Assembly: GCA_023251095.1 (NCBI GenBank)
Contig: JAHEZL010000003.1
Span: 124,001-188,000, forward strand
Length of the DNA: 64,000 bases
Direction: 5' to 3'
Source of the DNA: Flavobacteriales bacterium
Lineage (GTDB): Bacteria; Bacteroidota; Bacteroidia; Flavobacteriales_C; GCA-002722245
A program made the position numbers and the translations under genes. Below the pieces are notes generated by a model, which saw only the letters and a program-made list of their open reading frames with translations, did not search any database and had not been told where the DNA came from. Positions 3,010 to 52,252 of the stretch are shown piece by piece (within the stretch, counting starts at the first letter, position 1; each line of letters opens with the position of its first letter).

Positions 3010-4498
3010 CACCGTTCCATTCATCATTCATTCTTGATGATCGCGTCATTGTAGATGGTCCGCCACTTTCACCGGCTGTAATAACATTAAACTGATTGGA
3101 ATCCAGATCTTCAAATTTCGCGAGTGTATCGATGAAACGCAGCGGAATGTTTTTTAGTCCACCATTTCTGTGTTTGGCTACAATAACTTCACCGATTCCT
3201 AAAAGTGAATTTCCATTTTCGTCTTCGTTGATTTTGTAGTATTCGGGACGGTAAAGGAACATTACCATATCGGCATCCTGCTCAATCGCACCCGATTCAC
3301 GTAAGTCGGAAAGTTGCGGACGCTTATCGCCACCGCGGGTTTCCACCGCTCTACTCAACTGAGAAAGTGCAATCACCGGAACGCCTAATTCTTTCGCGAT
3401 ACTTTTCAATGATCGTGAAATGAAAGAGATTTCCTGCTCACGGTTTCCACCGCCTTCACCACCTGCAGTCATTAATTGGAGATAATCGATAATGATTAAT
3501 CCTAAGTTATGTTGCTGTTTTAAACGTCGTGCTTTTGCGCGCAACTCAAAAATAGAGAGGGCAGGAGTATCGTCGATGAATAAAGGGGCTTCAGAGATTT
3601 TTGAAACTTGTTTGTTCAATTGTTCCCATTCATGCTCTTTTAAAGTTCCTTTTTTTAACTTCTCTGCAGAAAGTTGAGTTTCTGTAACCATCAGCCTTGT
3701 CACCATTTGTAAGGCGGTCATCTCTAGCGAAAAAATAGCTGTTGGAATGTTAAACCTCACAGAAGTATTTCTGGCTACAGAAAGTACGAAAGCTGTTTTT
3801 CCCATACCCGGTCTTGCTGCCAGAATCAATAAATCGCCCGGCTGCCATCCTGAAGTCAGTTGGTCTAATTCGGCAAAACCCGATGGAACACCGTTCACAC
3901 CTTCACCTTTTTCACCTGCTTTTTTAATTTGTTCTTTGGCTTGCTTGATTAAGGTCGCCATGCTATCGTAGTTCTTACGGATATTCCCTTCGGCTACCTG
4001 AAATAGATTTTTTTCTGCAGTATCGAGCAAAGTAAATACATCAGTAGTTTCGTCGTAAGCATCCCGAATGGTATCAGAAGAAATACGAATCAATTCCCTT
4101 TGAATGTGTTTTTGCGAGATGATACGGGAGTGGTATTCAATATTGGCGGCCGATGAAATGCGGTTGGTGAGTTGGGTTAAAAAGTAAGCGCCGCCTACCA
4201 TTTCCAGTTCACCTGTTTTTTGCAATTCATTTTTTACCGTGAGTAAATCGATGGGTTCCGATCTTTGGAACAAGCGCTGAATAGCAGCGTAAATTCTGTT
4301 GTGCGCGTCTTTGTAAAAAGAGTCGGGTTGTAAAATATCAATTACATTGGTGAGTGCGTCTTTCTCCAGCATTAAAGCGCCTAATACAGCTTCTTCCAAA
4401 TCAACAGCCTGAGGTGGTACTTTGCCGTGTTGTTCCTCCATTGTAAGAGAAGTCACACGTTTTTTTAAGCCTGTCTTTCTATCACGAATCTTGTCCAT
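2993..4498 (-). CDS. dnaB: Replicative DNA helicase DnaB
   Basis: This is the hexameric 5'-3' helicase that unwinds DNA ahead of the replisome and recruits primase. The N-terminal domain (about residues 20-125, starting PPQAVDLEEAVLGALM) is followed by a RecA-like ATPase with Walker A ARPGMGKTA near residue 235 and Walker B LIIIDYLQLM. After these come the arginine-rich DNA-binding and sensor segments SQLSRAVETRGG and DLRESGAIEQDAD. At 501 residues it is normal length with no intein. Its 3' end overlaps the start of the downstream exported protein by 17 bases. The region upstream, toward accA, contains a large hairpin. Confidence 0.97.
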   Translation of the reverse strand: MDKIRDRKTGLKKRVTSLTMEEQHGKVPPQAVDLEEAVLGALMLEKDALTNVIDILQPDSFYKDAHNRIYAAIQRLFQRSEPIDLLTVKNELQKTGELEMVGGAYFLTQLTNRISSAANIEYHSRIISQKHIQRELIRISSDTIRDAYDETTDVFTLLDTAEKNLFQVAEGNIRKNYDSMATLIKQAKEQIKKAGEKGEGVNGVPSGFAELDQLTSGWQPGDLLILAARPGMGKTAFVLSVARNTSVRFNIPTAIFSLEMTALQMVTRLMVTETQLSAEKLKKGTLKEHEWEQLNKQVSKISEAPLFIDDTPALSIFELRAKARRLKQQHNLGLIIIDYLQLMTAGGEGGGNREQEISFISRSLKSIAKELGVPVIALSQLSRAVETRGGDKRPQLSDLRESGAIEQDADMVMFLYRPEYYKINEDENGNSLLGIGEVIVAKHRNGGLKNIPLRFIDTLAKFEDLDSNQFNVITAGESGGPSTMTRSSRMNDEWNGDESPF

Positions 4499-4588
4499 AC
4501 GCTGTGTTTAAAGTAACTTTTGCCGTTGAGTGAGCATGTAAAGATGAGGAAAAAAGAGGAAAGTTCAAATGGGGAATTATAAACAATT

Positions 4589-4672
4589 GTCTGAACCTTG
4601 ATTCACTTGATTAAAAGATTATCTTGATAGTACATCCTTGAATCCTTTCATCAAGTGAATCAAGATTCAGAC
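4589..4672. repeat. Large stem-loop between accA and dnaB
   Basis: The arms at 4589-4610 and 4651-4672 are inverted complements at 21 of 22 positions and are separated by a 40-base loop. The core is CTTGATTCACTTGA. It starts 7 bases downstream of the accA stop codon (minus strand) and upstream of dnaB. There is no T-tract next to either arm, so a simple intrinsic terminator is not shown. It may be a transcript-end stabiliser or a member of a dispersed palindrome family. Confidence 0.7.
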
Positions 4673-10699: not shown

Positions 10700-11935
10700 T
10701 TACCTATTAAAATAAGTCACACTACTCATCATCTTTTCATCAAAAATTTCATTTGAAATTTCCAGTATTTGATTGGCGGTGATCTTTTCAATTTTATTGT
10801 AAATCTGTTTTACGGAATCTACTTTTCCGTAGGTCACCAAACTTTTTCCGTACGCTAACATAAGCCCCACACGGTTTTCGTTAGCAAGAGTGATTTGTCC
10901 GAGGATTTGTTCTTTGGCAGATTTAAGTTGGAGAGGAGTGAGTTTTTTATCGCAGAATTTTTTCAATTCCTTTTTTACCAGTTCAATGGTTTTGTTGAGG
11001 TTCTTTTTATCGGTTCCGAAATAAATACTGAAAATTCCGGTGTCGCTGTACGGACTGTAATTGGCCTCGATGTTATAGGTGAGTCCGTGCTTTTCGCGAA
11101 TCTCCAGGTTGAGTCGCGAATTCATCGCCGGTCCGCCCAAAAGATTCGTCAATAAAACCAAAGGAGTTTTACGATCATCTTGCAAAGAATAAGCGGCATT
11201 TCCTAAAATATAATGACTCTGATTGGTTTCAGGTTTTTCTGTTTTATGAGAATTTACAGCGGGTACAGCAGGAATTTTATTTTCATGGGTATCTGCAATC
11301 ACATATTTCCCAAAATATTTTTCCAGCTTTTTTTTCAGTTCTTGTGTTGAAATATTTCCAATGCTGCTGATGACCACATTGTTGCGTGTGTAGTGTTTTT
11401 TGATGAAATTTTGAATGTCGCTTTTGGTGAATTTCTGCAGTGATTTTTTGGTACCTAAAATGTCTCTTCCCATTGCGTGCTTTGGGAAAAGCAGTAATTC
11501 AAATTCATCAATGATCATATCGGGCGGACTGTCCTGATACGATTTTATTTCATCTACAATCACAATTTTTTCTTTCTCCAATTCTTTGGAAGGAAAAGTA
11601 GAATTGAAAAAAATATCGGCCAGCAAATCTATGGAGCTATCCAAGTGTTTTTGCAGGAAAGAGGCGAAAACACAGGTGTCTTCCTTTGTTGTATACGCAT
11701 TCAATTCACCGCCAACAGCATCTATCTGATTTAAAATATGAAAAGCTTTTTTTGTTTTGGTGCCTTTAAAAATTACGTGCTCGATGAAGTGAGCGAGTCC
11801 GTGTTCATAAGTGGTTTCATCGCGTGAGCCTGCATTGGCAATGATGCCGAGATGGGCAACATTACTGTATGGAAATTCCTGATGAATAACTTTTAATCCA
11901 TTCGACAATTGAAATATTTCAAATTCTTTTATCAT
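10700..11935 (-). CDS. M16 family zinc metallopeptidase (single-unit)
   Basis: This is a pitrilysin/insulinase-family protease of 411 residues. The inverted zinc motif HxxEH is at His49-Phe-Ile-Glu52-His53, and the third ligand Glu129 lies in VIVDEIKSY, 76 residues later, as in active family members. The inactive C-terminal half follows, with the pattern GGPAMNSRLNLEIREKHGLTYN. No signal peptide is visible, so it is probably cytoplasmic, although some relatives are exported. Its start codon overlaps the stop of the GldN-like lipoprotein gene by 4 bases, so it is the last gene of a four-gene operon. The substrate is unknown. Confidence 0.9.
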   Translation of the reverse strand: MIKEFEIFQLSNGLKVIHQEFPYSNVAHLGIIANAGSRDETTYEHGLAHFIEHVIFKGTKTKKAFHILNQIDAVGGELNAYTTKEDTCVFASFLQKHLDSSIDLLADIFFNSTFPSKELEKEKIVIVDEIKSYQDSPPDMIIDEFELLLFPKHAMGRDILGTKKSLQKFTKSDIQNFIKKHYTRNNVVISSIGNISTQELKKKLEKYFGKYVIADTHENKIPAVPAVNSHKTEKPETNQSHYILGNAAYSLQDDRKTPLVLLTNLLGGPAMNSRLNLEIREKHGLTYNIEANYSPYSDTGIFSIYFGTDKKNLNKTIELVKKELKKFCDKKLTPLQLKSAKEQILGQITLANENRVGLMLAYGKSLVTYGKVDSVKQIYNKIEKITANQILEISNEIFDEKMMSSVTYFNR

Positions 11936-12480
11936 TCTGTTTCAGGTTTGTGCTCGTCAAAATAAATCCAGAACAAAGCGGTAAGTCCGCGTACTTCTCC
12001 TGCTTCATCAAAAGTTTTTACGAGCGGACAAACGGCTATCACTTCTTTACTGAAATGATTCGTCGCTTCATCGTAATACCAGCGTTCTTTGAATTTAACG
12101 TGGGTTACTCCATCGTAGTTAAATTCATGGACAATTGGAATCATTTTCGATTCTCCTGTATCAGGATTTGTATCATATACTGTATCGTTTTTCGATTTGA
12201 TGACTGCAATTTCTTCTGTTGTCATTAATCTTTCTCCTTTGGGAACAGGTAGATAAGCTTTTATTTTTCCTTCGAAAACCCCGCCAATCCATTCTTCCAG
12301 AATTTCTTTTCTTTTGTCGGCAGATAAGGCTTCCACTTCAAACGTTGTTTCTTCTGCCAAAGGATCGCCGATAAAAGCGTTGTAATTTATTTCTTCTGTG
12401 ATCACTTCTCCTCTTTTTTCGGGAGAGGTGGAACAGCCTAAAAAGGTGATTAGAGTAGCGAAGAGAGTAACACGAATCAT
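11932..12480 (-). CDS. GldN/PorN-like lipoprotein
   Basis: This is a 182-residue lipoprotein with the lipobox FLGC (Cys16). The body resembles the conserved part of GldN/PorN, the periplasmic T9SS protein that binds GldK/PorK. It has the segments EEWIGGVFEGKIKAY, DTVYDTNPDTGE, VHEFNYDGVTHVKFKERWYYDE and the C-terminal EVIAVCPL...EVRGLTALFWIYFDE. The resemblance is from memory of the family pattern and was not aligned. Unlike GldN it is a lipoprotein, and no gldK, gldL or gldM is adjacent. It overlaps lhgO upstream and the peptidase gene downstream by 4 bases each. It could act in T9SS or be a divergent paralogue. Confidence 0.6.
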   Translation of the reverse strand: MIRVTLFATLITFLGCSTSPEKRGEVITEEINYNAFIGDPLAEETTFEVEALSADKRKEILEEWIGGVFEGKIKAYLPVPKGERLMTTEEIAVIKSKNDTVYDTNPDTGESKMIPIVHEFNYDGVTHVKFKERWYYDEATNHFSKEVIAVCPLVKTFDEAGEVRGLTALFWIYFDEHKPETE

Positions 12481-45985: not shown

Positions 45986-47173
45986 TCATTCGGCAAATAA
46001 ATTTACCAGCTCATCCACATGGAAGAAGCTGCCGCGAATAGAATTGGAGAGAATAATGATGGTACCGTGTGCTTCGGGAACCCTTATGAATAATGATTTG
46101 TAGCCCTTCCACCAACCGCTGTGATATACTATTTGTTTAAAATTTTCATTGCTGCGCAATCTCCATCCCAATCCATAGGATCCGCCATGTGTTTCTGCTT
46201 TTTCATGTGGAGTGAAGGCAATATCCAGTAAACGTTTGGGTACCAGCTTGCAATCGTAGAGGGCCTGATCAAATTTCAGCAAGTCGTAAACATTGGAATA
46301 CATTCCTTTGTCGCCCACTACTCCGTCAAGGTAATCATAGTAAAGCGGGCGTAGGTCTCCAAGATGTCCGTAGGTAGCATTGATCAGTTCGGTTCTGTTT
46401 TGATTATTAAAAATACGGGTGTTTTCCATACCTGTCGGCAGGAAAATAGAATCACGCATGTATGTTTCGTAAGGCATTTTTGAAATGTGTTCAATGATAG
46501 AGGCCAGTACTAAATAATTGGTGTTGTTGTAATAAAAATGGGAATTCGGTCGCGCACTTTTAACGCCATGCTCTTTAAACAATCTCAAAACATCCTGATT
46601 GGTAATACTTCCTTCGGTATAGCCCCAGTGTTCATCGGTAAAGTACATGTAGTTGGGTAAGCCTGAGAAATGGGATAAAAGCATTTCAACGGTAATGCCG
46701 GGAAAGCTGAATTCGGGCAGTATTTGATTGACGGTGTCGGTTAAAGCTAACTTCCCCTGACTGATTAATCTGAGGATAGCGAAAGAGGTGAAAGGTTTTG
46801 TTGCCGATGCCAGTTGAAAAGTGGAAGTCATGCAAATACTGTCGTTTTTACGTTTGTAGTTGCCTAAACCTTGGCATGATTCGTAATAAATATTATCGTC
46901 CTTGGCGATGAGGATGGTTCCGCTGAAAAAACTATTGTCGAGATGATTTTCAAAAAACTCTTTTATTTTTCGGGCCATGGCACTGTCAACGGGTACCGGC
47001 TCATGAAATACGGGCACTTCTTCTATGTCTGATTTTCTAGTGTTTGAGGCAGTTCCGGTAGCGGATTCTTCGCCACAAGAAACTACAAATAAGCACATGA
47101 AAAACAGTGCCGATGAAAGGATGATTTTATTAAAAAACAGAATTCTATTAATACCTTTGCTCAAGTGGAACAA
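45986..47173 (-). CDS. Serine hydrolase lipoprotein (class C beta-lactamase family)
   Basis: This 395-residue lipoprotein has lipobox VVSC (Cys33). The start is a TTG at 47173; an in-frame TAA lies three codons upstream, and the next Met falls inside the signal peptide. The active-site SxxK is intact as Ser123-Ala-Thr-Lys126 (LASATKPFT). YNN follows in SHFYYNNTNYL near residue 223, and the HxG-type motif is YHSGWWKG near 365. Family members act as D,D-peptidases, esterases or beta-lactamases. The anchored periplasmic location fits peptide or cell-wall substrates, but the activity is not determined. It is a paralogue of the defective copy at 40817. Confidence 0.87.
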   Translation of the reverse strand: MFHLSKGINRILFFNKIILSSALFFMCLFVVSCGEESATGTASNTRKSDIEEVPVFHEPVPVDSAMARKIKEFFENHLDNSFFSGTILIAKDDNIYYESCQGLGNYKRKNDSICMTSTFQLASATKPFTSFAILRLISQGKLALTDTVNQILPEFSFPGITVEMLLSHFSGLPNYMYFTDEHWGYTEGSITNQDVLRLFKEHGVKSARPNSHFYYNNTNYLVLASIIEHISKMPYETYMRDSIFLPTGMENTRIFNNQNRTELINATYGHLGDLRPLYYDYLDGVVGDKGMYSNVYDLLKFDQALYDCKLVPKRLLDIAFTPHEKAETHGGSYGLGWRLRSNENFKQIVYHSGWWKGYKSLFIRVPEAHGTIIILSNSIRGSFFHVDELVNLFAE

Positions 47174-47218
47174 TATTTGTTAATTCACATCGGTAAATCT
47201 AAATCATAAAATTTTCAG

Positions 47219-48613
47219 ATGAAAAGCATTTACTTTTATTTTACTATCGTTTTGATGTTAATAATTTTTGGCTGTAACGGTTCGAAAAGCTTAACAAAAA
47301 AAGGTAGCAAGCTCTCAGAAGCGGGCATGTACAAAGAAGCTTCTGAATATTTTATGCGTGCTTTGTCCGCCCGACCTGATTATGTGGATGCGCAGGTTGG
47401 ATTGAAATTCAGTGGACAAAAAGCAATTGATGCTCAGGAATCTGCTTTTTTTCAGGCGTATACCGGCGGTGATAAAAAAACTGCGGTATATACTTATCTC
47501 GATATGAAAAATTTCAGAGACAGGGTGCTGGCAATGAAAGTTGAAGTAAGTTATCCTGCTCAGTACGAAGATGATTTCCAGCAGGTGAAAGGCGAATATC
47601 TCGATGAAAGATTTGCTCAGGCGAATACGCTTTTAGGAAATGAGGATTTCGGAAGTGCTGAAGTTATTTTCAATGAAATCATTCAGATTCAACCCGATTA
47701 TAAAGATGTAGAATCGCTTAAAAAATACGCGCACATTGAACCTATATACAGGAAAGGTGTGGAGGCAATGAAAAGAGAGAAAAACCGACAAGCCTATTAT
47801 TCTTTTCAAAGTGTAGTGCAGCAGCAGGAAGACTACAAAGATGCAAAGTCGCTGATGCAGCAGGCTTTGCAGGAGGCGCAGTACACTGTTGCTCTTCTTC
47901 CCTTTGAAAATGTGAGTTATGAAAGAGGTGCTTCCGATAATATTTCGGCAAAAGTTTTGAATGATGTATTGCAAAATAAAGGGCCTTTTTTAAAAGTAAT
48001 CGACCGTCAGAATCTGGATTTTTTGCTCAAAGAACAAAAGCTGGCCATGATTGGTGTGGTGGATGAAAATACTGCTGCCAATGCAGGAAATATCATTGGC
48101 GCAAAAGCGGTGCTGATTGGAAAAGTATTGGAGGTTAAAGTATCGGAATCACCTGTGATTTCACAAAGAATCAAAGGTTATGAATCTTATCTGATCAGAA
48201 AACTGAACACGCAAACCGGACAATATTACAACGAAACTGCTTACAAAAAAGTGATTTACACCGACTATTCAGGCAGCCGACAAGTAAGCTGTTCTTTTCA
48301 GTACAAGCTGATATCGGCTGAAACAGGCGAGATTTTGCTTTCTAATATTGTGTCGCATACAGAAAGCAGTAACGTTCATTATGCCTATTATGATGGTGAT
48401 TACAACTTGTTGTGTCCGGGCACGTGGCAATCGCAAACACAAAGCAGCACAGGAGATGTCATTCATAATGGATTTTTTGAGAAACAGCAACTGGCTGCTC
48501 TTTTTAAGGCCTCCAAAGTATTGGCGTCTAAAGATGCTTTGTTGTCCACTATTTACGATAAAATAGGCAGTACTGCTGCCAGAGCTGTTTATAGCTATAA
48601 TCCTGAAAACTGA
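47219..48613 (+). CDS. TPR lipoprotein with a CsgG-like domain
   Basis: This is a 464-residue lipoprotein with lipobox IFGC (Cys19). TPR-like helical repeats (GSKLSEAGMYKEASEYFMRAL, GNEDFGSAEVIFNEIIQIQPDY) fill about residues 25-215. From about 220 comes a CsgG-type domain: VALLPFENVSYERGASDNISAKVLNDVL, then FLKVIDRQNLDFLLKEQKL and AKAVLIGKVLEV. CsgG forms the outer-membrane channel for curli export, and CsgG-like lipoproteins occur in other envelope machines. It starts a probable operon with the LPP20-like gene (1-base overlap) and the long-helix gene. No other curli genes are nearby. Confidence 0.75.
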   Translation: MKSIYFYFTIVLMLIIFGCNGSKSLTKKGSKLSEAGMYKEASEYFMRALSARPDYVDAQVGLKFSGQKAIDAQESAFFQAYTGGDKKTAVYTYLDMKNFRDRVLAMKVEVSYPAQYEDDFQQVKGEYLDERFAQANTLLGNEDFGSAEVIFNEIIQIQPDYKDVESLKKYAHIEPIYRKGVEAMKREKNRQAYYSFQSVVQQQEDYKDAKSLMQQALQEAQYTVALLPFENVSYERGASDNISAKVLNDVLQNKGPFLKVIDRQNLDFLLKEQKLAMIGVVDENTAANAGNIIGAKAVLIGKVLEVKVSESPVISQRIKGYESYLIRKLNTQTGQYYNETAYKKVIYTDYSGSRQVSCSFQYKLISAETGEILLSNIVSHTESSNVHYAYYDGDYNLLCPGTWQSQTQSSTGDVIHNGFFEKQQLAALFKASKVLASKDALLSTIYDKIGSTAARAVYSYNPEN

Positions 48614-50001
48614 TGATGAGAATTTTTACCATAGGTTTATGTCTTTTTTTTGTAGCCTGTACTTCAGCAAAGAAAACTGAAAGCGCTGATAACAAAAGTG
48701 AAAATAAAACGATGCCCGAGTGGGTGAATATTCGACCGATTTCTACCGAATATTATATAGGTATAGGTTCTGCTTCTAAAAAAAACTTCCCTTCCGATTT
48801 TCGTGAAGCTGCCCGAAAAAATGCTTTGAATAATTTAGCCGGTGAAATTTCGGTCACCATTTCTTCGCAGTCGGTATTGTCGCAACTGGAAACCGATAAT
48901 AAATACAAAGAAGACTTTCAACAAAACATACGGGTGAATGTAAATCAGCAAATTGAAGGATTTGATGAAGTGGATACTTATGAAAGCAAAGATTTTTACT
49001 GGACTTACTATCGCTTATCCAAAGCCGATTATCTGGAGCGCAAACTCAAACAGGTAAAAGATGCAGTGAATCAGGGGAAAGATTTTTTAATCAAGGCCCG
49101 TGAGTATAAAAATCTAATGCGATATAAAGAAGCCTTGTTGGCTTATATATCCGGAATTGATAAAATCACTGCTTATCTCGATCAATCGCTGGAAACCGAT
49201 TTGGACGGCCAGAAGATATATCTGGGAAATGAGCTTTTTAACGGCTATCGTTCTTTGTTGAATCAAATAGTAATTGATGCCGAGGTGGAGGTTTACCGCA
49301 TTAAAATGGGAAATTCAGGGAGCATTAAGTTTTCAGTGAAAACTTCCGATGGAAAGGCTTTGGTTGGAATTCCCATTACAGTAGAGGTAAAAAAACGCTT
49401 GCATTCATACTCTGATATGGTTTCTGATGCTTCAGGAATGTTAACTGTGGATATAGGCAAGGTATCACGACAAACGGTGGAGCAGTATATCAACGTGCAG
49501 GTAAATATTAAACAGCTGATTAAAGAGGCTTCAGTAGGATCCGTTGTTACAAAGGTTTTAGGTACTGTAAATACTTCTCCTGAAAAAATAAATATTGAGG
49601 TTCAGCCGGTGTTTGTATTGATTAAATCGGTGGAAAAAAATAACGGACAAACTTTGTCCAAAACGATGCTGGATCTGGCCTTGAGAGAAGGATTGGCTGC
49701 AAATGGTTTTATTGCTGTGAGTGCCATTGAAAAAGCCGATTTGATTGTAGAGATCTCAGCTGAATCAACCGATGCGGGAGTGGTGAGTGAGATGAACACG
49801 CAGTTTTATTCTTCTACTTTAAATGCAATTGTTGTTTTTAAAAACAAGAGCACTTCTAATGAAATTTTTCAAACCGGATTGCATTCTATAAAAGGAGCGC
49901 AGCTTTCTTTTGAAAAAGCATCGGAAGACGCTTACATCAAAGCATCCAAAAAAATGAAATTGTCAGTGGTGGATGATTTCGTTAAAGTCTACTCTGAATA
50001 G
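48613..50001 (+). CDS. LPP20-like lipoprotein
   Basis: This is a 462-residue lipoprotein with lipobox FVAC (Cys16); the first ATG overlaps the preceding stop codon by one base. The N-terminal part MPEWVNIRPISTEYYIGIGSASK near residue 34, followed by AARKNALNNLAGEISVTISS, matches the LPP20 family (Helicobacter LPP20, Vibrio FlgP). A central domain near 230-300 resembles an immunoglobulin-like fold (GSIKFSVKTSDGKALVGIPITVEV). The C-terminus has ADLIVEISAESTDAG and resembles a CsgG/LpoB-type alpha-beta fold, which is tentative. Together with the gene upstream it suggests an outer-membrane lipoprotein complex. Confidence 0.72.
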   Translation: MMRIFTIGLCLFFVACTSAKKTESADNKSENKTMPEWVNIRPISTEYYIGIGSASKKNFPSDFREAARKNALNNLAGEISVTISSQSVLSQLETDNKYKEDFQQNIRVNVNQQIEGFDEVDTYESKDFYWTYYRLSKADYLERKLKQVKDAVNQGKDFLIKAREYKNLMRYKEALLAYISGIDKITAYLDQSLETDLDGQKIYLGNELFNGYRSLLNQIVIDAEVEVYRIKMGNSGSIKFSVKTSDGKALVGIPITVEVKKRLHSYSDMVSDASGMLTVDIGKVSRQTVEQYINVQVNIKQLIKEASVGSVVTKVLGTVNTSPEKINIEVQPVFVLIKSVEKNNGQTLSKTMLDLALREGLAANGFIAVSAIEKADLIVEISAESTDAGVVSEMNTQFYSSTLNAIVVFKNKSTSNEIFQTGLHSIKGAQLSFEKASEDAYIKASKKMKLSVVDDFVKVYSE

Positions 50002-50059
50002 AAATTTTCCTTATTTTTATCCGGGCTAGCATTTTTATAATTTCTGTTTTTGTAAATCA

Positions 50060-52252
50060 ATGAACTTGAATTTTTTCAGATCAATCGTTTTTGTTTTATT
50101 GACTTTTTTGTCGCTGACTTTATCTGCTCAGGACAAAACCCTTGAGCTTGTTGGTTTTGCTAAAGACAAAGGCCGACCGGTTGCAGGGGTTCACATCACC
50201 GTTTTTAACGGAGCAACCCTCGTTACCGAATTTACCACCACCGCCAACGGTCGCTATGAGTTATATCTTGAGTACAATAGAGATTTTAAAGTAGTTATTG
50301 AGAAAGACGGTTATGTGAAGGAAACCATGACGGTGAATACTCAGCTTCCCGAAGGTGTTAAAGTAGAAGACATGTCGATGGACGTATATTTAAAAATGTA
50401 TGCTTTCCCAAAAGACGGTTCCACTTTAACTTTCGATGAGCCCGTTGCAAAAGTGTTTTTTCAGGATGATGTACAGGCTTTTGATTATGATTTGAGTTAT
50501 GAAAAAAACATCAAGGCCAAGCTGGATGAGATGGAGAAAAAGATTGACGATAAAAATAAAGTCACCGATGCGGCTAAGAAAGATCAGGGAGATGCCGCCT
50601 CTAAAGCTGAGTTTGATAAAAAGAAAGCCGAGCAGGATGCTTTGAAAGAGGCAGCTGTGAAGGCTCAGGCTGATGCTCAGGCAAAAGAGGCCGAGTCAAA
50701 AAAGAAAGAAGAGGCCGACAAAGCCAAAGCTGAAGCAGATCGTTTACTTGCTCTGGAATCCAAACAAAAAGAAGATGCTGCCAATAAATTAGCGGCTGAA
50801 GAAAAAGCCAAACGTGATGCAGAATTATTGAAAATAGCCGCAGAAAAAGAAAAACAAAAATTAGAAGCTGAGGCTGCCAAAAAGAAAGCTGACGAAGAAG
50901 AGCGTAAAGCAAAGGAAGAGCAGCTTAAAATGGAATCCGCTAAAAAACAATTAGAAGTCGAGAAAGCGTTACTTGAAGAACGAAAAAAACAAGAGGAAGA
51001 AGAACGCATCAATGCCGAAAAAGCGCAGGAAGCTGCCCGTTTAGCGGAAGAAGAAAAGAAAGAGAAAGCAGCAGCGGAAGAAGTTAAACGTAAACAAGAT
51101 CAGGAAGCAGCAATCAAAGCAGCTGAAGCAAAAATCAAGGCTGAGAAAGAAGCAGAGCTGGCTAAAAAAGCAGAAGCAGAGAAAAAAGCAAAAGAAGAAG
51201 AAGAGAAAAAACTGTTGGCGAAAGCAGCTGAAGAAACCAGATTGGCTGAAGAAGCGCGTAAAATTGCCGACGCTGAAAAAGCAAAAGCCGAAGCGCAGCA
51301 GAAACAAGAAGAAGAAACCCGTAAAGCTGTTGAAGCGGCTCGCTTGAAAAAACTGGAAGTAGAAGCTAAAGTGAAAGAACAGGCAGAAGAGCTGGCGAAA
51401 TTGGAAGAGGTTAAAAAAGCGCGTGAGGCGCGTGAAAAAATTGAGGCGGAACAAAAACGAGTGGAAGAAGAAAAAAACAAACAGGCTGAAGAGGCTGCCC
51501 GACTCAAAGTTATTGCCGATGCCAGAGCAAAAGCAGAGCAGGATTCTATTCGCAGCGTTCAACTGGCTTTGAGTAAAAAACAGGCAGAAGAAGAAACCGC
51601 AAAAGCTGCGGAAGCCAAACGTAAAGAGGAAGAAGCAAAAAAATCTGCTGAACTTGCAGCTGTTAAGGCAGCGGAGGAAAAAGCAAAAGCCGATCTGGCT
51701 CAAAAATCTGCCGATGAAGCTGAAAAAAAACGTAAAGATGAGGAGGCTCGTGCTGCTATTGCCGAAGAAAACGCCCGTAAAGCAGCTGATCTCGCCAATG
51801 CAAAAGCAGCAGAAGAAAAAAGATTATCGGAGCTGAAAGCTTTGCGACAAAAAGCAGTGGCCGACAGTATGGCACAGGTGACCATTCAGGAGGAAGTAGC
51901 TAAAAAAGCGGCTGAAGCTGAAAGAAAAAAGAAGGAAGAAGCTATTGCTAAGTACAAAGAAAAATTACAGCAGGATCAGGCTACTATTGTTAAAACTACG
52001 GAGACTAAGGAAGTTGATTTTACCAACAAAGAGCAAAAAGAACAGTATTTATCGGAGCTCGCTCAAAAATATCCCGAAGGTATAACCCGTGAAACCGTAA
52101 CGGAGGCCAAAAGAGTAATCAATAAAGTAATTGTGGTGAAAGCAGGTAAAGCCGATGAATACAAAGAAGTAAAGTATAGCTACGGTGGGGTTTACTATTT
52201 TAAAAATGGCACTTCGATTACTGCCAATGCCTATACCAGTGAAACAAAATAA
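50060..52252 (+). CDS. Exported protein with CRD domain and very long charged helix
   Basis: This is a 730-residue exported protein with a signal peptide ending LSLTLSAQ. Residues about 27-110 form a carboxypeptidase-regulatory-like beta-sandwich (GFAKDKGRPVAGVHITVF and TTTANGRYELYLEYNRDFKVVIEKDGY). From about 165 to 650 the chain is an almost uninterrupted Ala/Lys/Glu-rich helix that could span several tens of nanometres if fully extended. A short C-terminal domain near 660-730 contains YPEGITRETVTEAKRVINKVIVVK and YSYGGVYYFKNGTSI. It follows the LPP20-like gene by 58 bases. The architecture suggests a periplasmic linker; the role is unknown. Confidence 0.7.
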   Translation: MNLNFFRSIVFVLLTFLSLTLSAQDKTLELVGFAKDKGRPVAGVHITVFNGATLVTEFTTTANGRYELYLEYNRDFKVVIEKDGYVKETMTVNTQLPEGVKVEDMSMDVYLKMYAFPKDGSTLTFDEPVAKVFFQDDVQAFDYDLSYEKNIKAKLDEMEKKIDDKNKVTDAAKKDQGDAASKAEFDKKKAEQDALKEAAVKAQADAQAKEAESKKKEEADKAKAEADRLLALESKQKEDAANKLAAEEKAKRDAELLKIAAEKEKQKLEAEAAKKKADEEERKAKEEQLKMESAKKQLEVEKALLEERKKQEEEERINAEKAQEAARLAEEEKKEKAAAEEVKRKQDQEAAIKAAEAKIKAEKEAELAKKAEAEKKAKEEEEKKLLAKAAEETRLAEEARKIADAEKAKAEAQQKQEEETRKAVEAARLKKLEVEAKVKEQAEELAKLEEVKKAREAREKIEAEQKRVEEEKNKQAEEAARLKVIADARAKAEQDSIRSVQLALSKKQAEEETAKAAEAKRKEEEAKKSAELAAVKAAEEKAKADLAQKSADEAEKKRKDEEARAAIAEENARKAADLANAKAAEEKRLSELKALRQKAVADSMAQVTIQEEVAKKAAEAERKKKEEAIAKYKEKLQQDQATIVKTTETKEVDFTNKEQKEQYLSELAQKYPEGITRETVTEAKRVINKVIVVKAGKADEYKEVKYSYGGVYYFKNGTSITANAYTSETK

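Follow-up and report, generated by a model that had tools for sequence, protein, structure and literature searches.

The window analysed here is a stretch of 64,000 nucleotides from a Flavobacteriales bacterium (contig JAHEZL010000003.1, positions 124,001 to 188,000), and within it three consecutive genes on one strand, here called P1, P2 and P3, encode exported products. A first-pass annotation made from the sequence alone had described these products at 47219-52252, and its open reading frames (ORFs), the single base shared by P1 and P2 (TGATG) and the gap of 58 bases between P2 and P3 were all reproduced in the current study. P1 and P2 are an ancient gene pair, and their true third partner is not the adjacent P3 but a short lipoprotein gene, P0, that is located elsewhere in this genome. 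The genes of the cluster are as follows.

47219..48613, + strand: P1 gene, an intact ORF for a lipoprotein with a tetratricopeptide repeat (TPR)/helical N-terminal half and a CsgG-fold C-terminal half
48613..50001, + strand: P2 gene, an intact ORF for a lipoprotein with LPP20, Ig/macroglobulin-like and C-terminal CsgG/HpaA-like domains
50060..52252, + strand: P3 gene, an intact ORF for a protein with a signal peptide, a CRD-like domain, a charged helix of ~490 residues and a C-terminal domain

Co-inheritance of P1, P2 and P0 in Bacteroidia

Occurrence counts for P1, P2 and P0 were made on 247 Bacteroidia genomes that had been sampled evenly. P2 is present in 52 of these, representing 13 families, and P1 is located directly upstream of it in 41 of the 52. 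The two genes are found jointly in 48 genomes (Fisher 1e-38, a value that, like the other co-inheritance p-values, is inflated by kinship among the sampled genomes). The pairing exceeds chance, as it is kept between families whose proteins are only about 25-40% identical, and in the window's own family the two genes overlap or touch in all nine genomes that carry both.

A further gene recurs in these neighbourhoods. P0 encodes an LPP20-like lipoprotein of ~190 residues, and a profile search recovered it from 57 of the 247 genomes, including every one of the 52 with P2 (Fisher 4e-48). Outside the window's family it is no more than 6 kb from P2 in 35 of 44 genomes, and in families f11 and f14 P2 stands beside P0 with no P1 alongside. 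The first-pass annotation overlooked this gene because it is encoded outside the window, unlinked to and far from P1-P2:

contig C42 of the window's genome (G000), 4060-4638, - strand: P0 gene

The set of P1, P2 and P0 is thus conserved and co-inherited over many Bacteroidia, with P1-P2, and P0 in most other families, as gene neighbours, and nearly all members carry a lipobox. Other Bacteroidia have a second type of cluster, wherein a CsgG-TPR protein with reversed domain order is followed by a P2-like protein (L143:3456-8722, L144:6495-12015 and L145:7839-10912); further exported proteins lie in between at two of these three loci, and P0 flanks two of the three.

P3 is a local neighbour that stands outside the conserved set. 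It adjoins P1-P2 in all five genomes of the window's genus and only there, and in all four genomes of the sister genus its orthologue is on another contig while P1 and P2 are still together. Its C-terminal domain (~75 residues, window 52013-52252), which belongs to no Pfam family and had not been described in the first-pass annotation, represents a multicopy family with matches in 113 of the 247 Bacteroidia, often in several copies, and the association of this family with P2 is weak (Fisher p 0.005). On the basis of synteny in the sister genus and of this family distribution, we rejected P3 as a third component. Co-transcription of P2 and P3 within the window's genus is nevertheless possible, because no conserved promoter-like block was seen in the gap between them.

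The remainder of P3 consists of a Sec-type signal peptide, a CRD-like domain (CarboxypepD_reg, 29.9 bits, just below the cut-off of 32.3) and a segment of 494 residues (178-671) that is free of Pro and Gly. Pairs at i,i+4 in this segment include 140 of opposite charge and 10 of like charge, and there is no heptad periodicity; the predicted pattern is as in a single charged alpha-helix. The C-terminal domain ends a Bacteroidia-wide exported family whose charged helices vary greatly in length, the longest member in this genome having 1926 residues (L056:270-6050, on C42).

These observations bear on the earlier proposal that P1 forms a pore, P2 a ring and P3 a rod that spans the periplasm, all within one three-gene complex. 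Tight spacing on a common strand in the five genomes of one genus, and the Pfam match of P1 to CsgG, speak for this architecture, and the interpretation is partly supported in that P1-P2 is an operon-like pair of outer-membrane-type lipoproteins conserved across families. P3, however, does not accompany the pair beyond the window's genus, and its family is largely independent. Moreover, a helix of 490 residues would be ~74 nm long, and the periplasm is far narrower than that, which speaks against the rod.

Domains and folds of the three lipoproteins

P1 combines a TPR/helical half (residues 20-220) with a CsgG-fold half (residues 222-460), and its lipobox Cys19 is invariant among the relatives compared. 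The second half maps to the following coordinates.

47882..48598, + strand: CsgG/HpaA-fold part of P1 (DSSP of the model; hydrophobic-face test against Escherichia coli CsgG)

The Pfam profile of CsgG (PF03783) is matched with an E value of 1.6e-9 and 37.8 bits (cut-off 20.8), a match that spans only profile positions 33-99 of 210, and TPRs are matched as well. AlphaFold2 models of P1 and P2, built from the sequences of only 8-9 relatives, have mean pLDDT values of 88 and 82, respectively. When the C-terminal half of P1 was compared with the Protein Data Bank (PDB) by Foldseek, it matched HpaA, GNA1162, CsgG, PelC and FlgT (E 5e-5 to 1e-3 for CsgG, HpaA, PelC and GNA1162). The profile score above cut-off and the CsgG-type fold of the model place P1 in the CsgG (PF03783) fold family; profile and structure searches both agree with the first-pass annotation on the fold of this segment.

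The channel function that had been attached to the fold fared less well. CsgG-type secretion channels were recognized here by a pair of amphipathic membrane beta-hairpins in each subunit, E. coli CsgG serving as the control. By DSSP of the model, the CsgG-fold part of P1 has a long beta-hairpin (residues 303-366) that is not amphipathic: Lys, Tyr and Asn are abundant on both of its faces, and there is no alternating hydrophobic pattern. Hairpin hydrophobic-face scores reach at most 1.6-2.0 in P1 versus 3.2-4.2 in the control, and the fraction of amphipathic 9-mers is 0.10-0.33 versus 0.61-0.67. We rejected P1 as a CsgG-like pore on this measure, and formation of a beta-barrel pore is unlikely because recognizable amphipathic membrane hairpins are absent from its CsgG fold. 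The Pfam match to CsgG likewise misses the membrane hairpins. The absence of acidic residues from the 95 positions inspected behind the lipobox of P1, in contrast to the acidic surface-export signal of this phylum (PMC5080379), also weighs against a pore. In combination with the fate of P3, this leaves the pore, ring and rod complex mostly refuted and highly improbable.

A soluble CsgG-fold lipoprotein such as HpaA, GNA1162 or LpoB is a better comparison for P1 than a pore. P1 resembles LpoB, GNA1162, HpaA and PelC in its small alpha/beta fold and in its anchoring as an outer-membrane lipoprotein, but we know of none of these that has a TPR fusion and is partnered by an LPP20 protein. The curli channel shares the CsgG-fold domain with P1 and differs in its membrane hairpins, in the absence of a TPR fusion and in the company of CsgA/B/E/F, which are not found near P1. 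In one relative, a metagenome-assembled genome from Lake Pavin, P1 (L041:977-2405) is split into two frames near codon 69, through either an assembly error or inactivation.

Two domains of P2 can be delimited as follows.

48715..49017, + strand: LPP20 domain of P2, residues 35-135 (PF02169, E 4.6e-12; homologous to P0 by profile comparison)
49582..49995, + strand: C-terminal CsgG/HpaA-like domain of P2, residues 324-461 (order of secondary-structure elements in the model; Foldseek matches HpaA, CsgG and GNA1162)

The match of P2 to PF02169 (46.6 bits, cut-off 25.9) is the sole such match in the genome, and lipobox Cys16 is invariant among the relatives compared. Judged by profile score and lipobox, P2 belongs to the LPP20 family, as the first-pass annotation had proposed. 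The Ig/macroglobulin-like domain and the second, CsgG/HpaA-like domain of P2 went unmentioned there. Foldseek matches of P2 are HpaA, CsgG, GNA1162, C5 MG4 and an LPHT-ring chain, and its best solved relative by sequence is HP1454 of Helicobacter pylori (4kzs, phmmer E 0.0013). Neither P1 nor P2 has a Pfam match to FlgO or FlgT. Sequence homology between the CsgG domain of P1 and the C-terminal domain of P2 was considered and rejected; since the profile alignment caught signal peptides only, the CsgG/HpaA likeness of the two proteins rests on predicted structure.

P0 aligns with the LPP20 domain of P2 over 141 columns in a profile comparison (probability 88%, E 2.8e-6). Its best member scores 25.5 bits against PF02169, just short of the cut-off, and the P0 of the window's genome has no Pfam match.

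A sigma-54-like element upstream of P1 and P0

A promoter-like element that had escaped the first-pass annotation is located in the region between P1 and its divergent neighbour.

47162..47188, + strand: 27-bp block CAAGTGGAACAATATTTGTTAATTCAC, conserved in the genus, in the region that separates P1 from the divergent hydrolase
47166-47180, + strand: sigma-54-like -24/-12 element TGGAAC-N5-TTGT within the 27-bp block
45986..47173, - strand: serine hydrolase lipoprotein of PF00144 (beta-lactamase/penicillin-binding protein (PBP) type; Pfam E 1.8e-42), divergent from P1 and sharing its intergenic region

The block is almost invariant in the five genomes of the window's genus, with proteins down to 52% identical. 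In the sister genus the motif is kept amid differing bases, and the full form TGGAAC-N5-TTGCA occurs twice. A relaxed motif, TGG[AC]A[CT]-N5-TTG, is present upstream of P1 in 10 of 10 genomes of the family and upstream of the unlinked P0 in all five examined. Among 340 upstream regions of family loci this motif has 12 matches, every one of which belongs to P1 or P0. The published sigma-54 consensus is TGGCAC-N5-7-TTGCT (PMC12316311). All of the elements keep the GG-N10-G spacing, the full GC being present only upstream of P1 in two genomes and of P0 in one, and RpoN is encoded in the window's genome. The shared element provides a second, independent link between P1 and the unlinked P0 in the window's family, and RpoN may switch on both the P1-P2 and the P0 genes.

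The divergent PF00144 hydrolase is found upstream of P1 in 10 of 10 family genomes, from both genera, and is not a kept neighbour outside this family. Because its proposed TTG start (47173) lies within the conserved promoter block, the true start may be further in. A separate gene for a GH3 and PF00144 fusion (L220:16785-19736) has a strict sigma-54-like site, TGGAACTTCTTTTGCA, ~55 nt upstream, which may mark a further target or be due to chance.

The hydrolase raises the possibility of a set that activates peptidoglycan synthases, wherein P1 is a fused LpoA/LpoB-like activator (TPRs plus LpoB fold) that reaches a PBP through the wall, with P2 and P0 as accessories. P1 does exceed the Pfam cut-off for LpoB (23.9 bits, cut-off 22.3), the neighbouring hydrolase has PBP4B/AmpH-like similarity, and the strict site of the GH3 fusion would fit such a role. 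However, the NCBIfam LpoB model is matched weakly, at 14.5 bits against an equivalog cut-off of 110.55, and Foldseek ranks CsgG, HpaA, GNA1162 and PelC above LpoB. The hydrolase is a conserved neighbour of P1 in the window's family only, and LpoB has, to our knowledge, no LPP20 partner. We consider this explanation improbable.

The element itself is also compatible with periplasmic lipoproteins that each serve a general envelope-stress response on their own, and that would be co-regulated and co-inherited but would form no physical complex. Its presence at both unlinked loci fits this explanation, as does the published link of sigma-54 in Bacteroidota to genes for protein quality control and stress (PMC12316311). 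On the other hand, the adjacency of P1, P2 and P0 in many families and the LPP20 relationship of P2 and P0 are more typical of a complex, and we judge it unlikely that the three proteins work separately.

A predicted lipoprotein scaffold beneath the outer membrane

Bacteroidota lipoproteins that are exported to the cell surface carry an acidic signal, sought here at positions +2 to +6 after the lipid-bearing Cys (PMC5080379). Acidic residues occupy 0 of 95 such positions in P1, 2 of 50 in P0 and 13 of 115 in P2, such that the signal is absent in P1, almost absent in P0 and little evident in P2. All three proteins are therefore predicted to reside on the periplasmic face of the outer membrane. 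We propose that P1, P2 and P0 act together as a periplasm-facing lipoprotein scaffold or ring that is anchored in the outer membrane, is neither flagellar nor curli and does not include P3, a reading to which we assign a probability of roughly 50%. LPP20 domains (in FlgP disks) and CsgG-type folds (in CsgG, PelC and FlgT) build rings in known systems. In the proposed assembly, these domains would oligomerize under the outer membrane and the TPRs of P1 would dock a partner, and the role of the set would most likely be to stabilize the outer membrane or an envelope machine.

Several observations call for caution regarding this proposal. Oligomerization and contact among P1, P2 and P0 are themselves presumed. 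Within its LPP20 region, the P2 model has poor resolution at residues 81-112, and the fold matches of P1 and P2 are globally weak (query TM about 0.2-0.25); because these TM-scores are low when normalized by multi-domain queries, the Foldseek results should be read as fold assignments and not as precise superpositions. The best PDB sequence match of P0, Lpp20 (HP1456) of H. pylori (5ok8), has an E value of 0.064 and is not significant alone. The -12 part of the element is mostly TTGT or TTGA and not TTGC, and thus control by sigma-54 is indicated by likeness only. The motif is essentially absent upstream of P1, P0 and P2 in other families. Finally, a wider scan of ~1.23 Mb, about a third of the genome, gave 6 relaxed-motif matches for 971 genes, and shuffled sequences gave 1-7. 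Since the motif, apart from P1 and P0, is thus near the shuffled level, candidates for further regulon members in this portion were dropped, and only P1 and P0 are claimed as members.

The closest known counterpart is the H. pylori operon for HP1454 and HP1456 (Lpp20), which holds the best solved relatives of P2 and P0. These proteins are likewise lipoproteins or secreted, carry LPP20 domains and derive from one operon. However, the TPR-CsgG fusion of P1 and the addition of Ig-like and CsgG/HpaA-like domains in P2 are a Bacteroidia arrangement, the match of P0 is below significance, and no partner of the FlgP or FapH type was found here. HP1454 and HP1456 interact with the disk protein FlgP, and deletion of hp1456 leaves the cells motile and their motor normal (PMC11756786); even in H. 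pylori, such proteins may therefore act outside the motor.

The H-ring of Vibrio, which is made of FlgO, FlgP and FlgT (PMC6375700), similarly combines LPP20-type with CsgG/TolB-N-type periplasmic proteins of the outer membrane, and a chain of the LPHT ring (8z5n) and FlgT (3w1e) are among the Foldseek matches of P2 and P1, respectively. Our set differs in its domain fusions and in its lack of FlgO/FlgT profile matches and of flagellar genes in the window. No curli or flagellar families were detected when the main ORFs of the window were scanned with Pfam, in agreement with the first-pass annotation; flagellar genes were not searched for in the whole genome. Elsewhere in the window, a 182-residue protein (11935-12480, - strand) has a Pfam match to GldN of type IX secretion and gliding, and is flanked by genes for a DAO-family oxidoreductase and an M16 peptidase.

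In searches of the open literature, we found no publication linking LPP20 with CsgG proteins in Bacteroidota, and nothing relevant on LPP20 with Bacteroidetes or Flavobacterium. Lipoproteins of the LPP20 and CsgG-fold types have mainly been described from flagellar motors and secretion channels. A broader and more doubtful hypothesis is that, in many Bacteroidia, TPR-CsgG, LPP20-Ig-CsgG and short LPP20 lipoproteins assemble into a non-flagellar ring or disk beneath the outer membrane, with a dedicated sigma-54 regulon in one lineage, and that the H-rings of flagella and the Lpp20 operon of H. pylori would have branched from this same, older outer-membrane scaffold. Regardless, the occurrence of these folds in a widely conserved Bacteroidia set, away from flagellar gene clusters, suggests a general outer-membrane function for ring-forming folds, and the set offers concrete genes, a partner (P0) that a single-locus reading had missed and a testable promoter.

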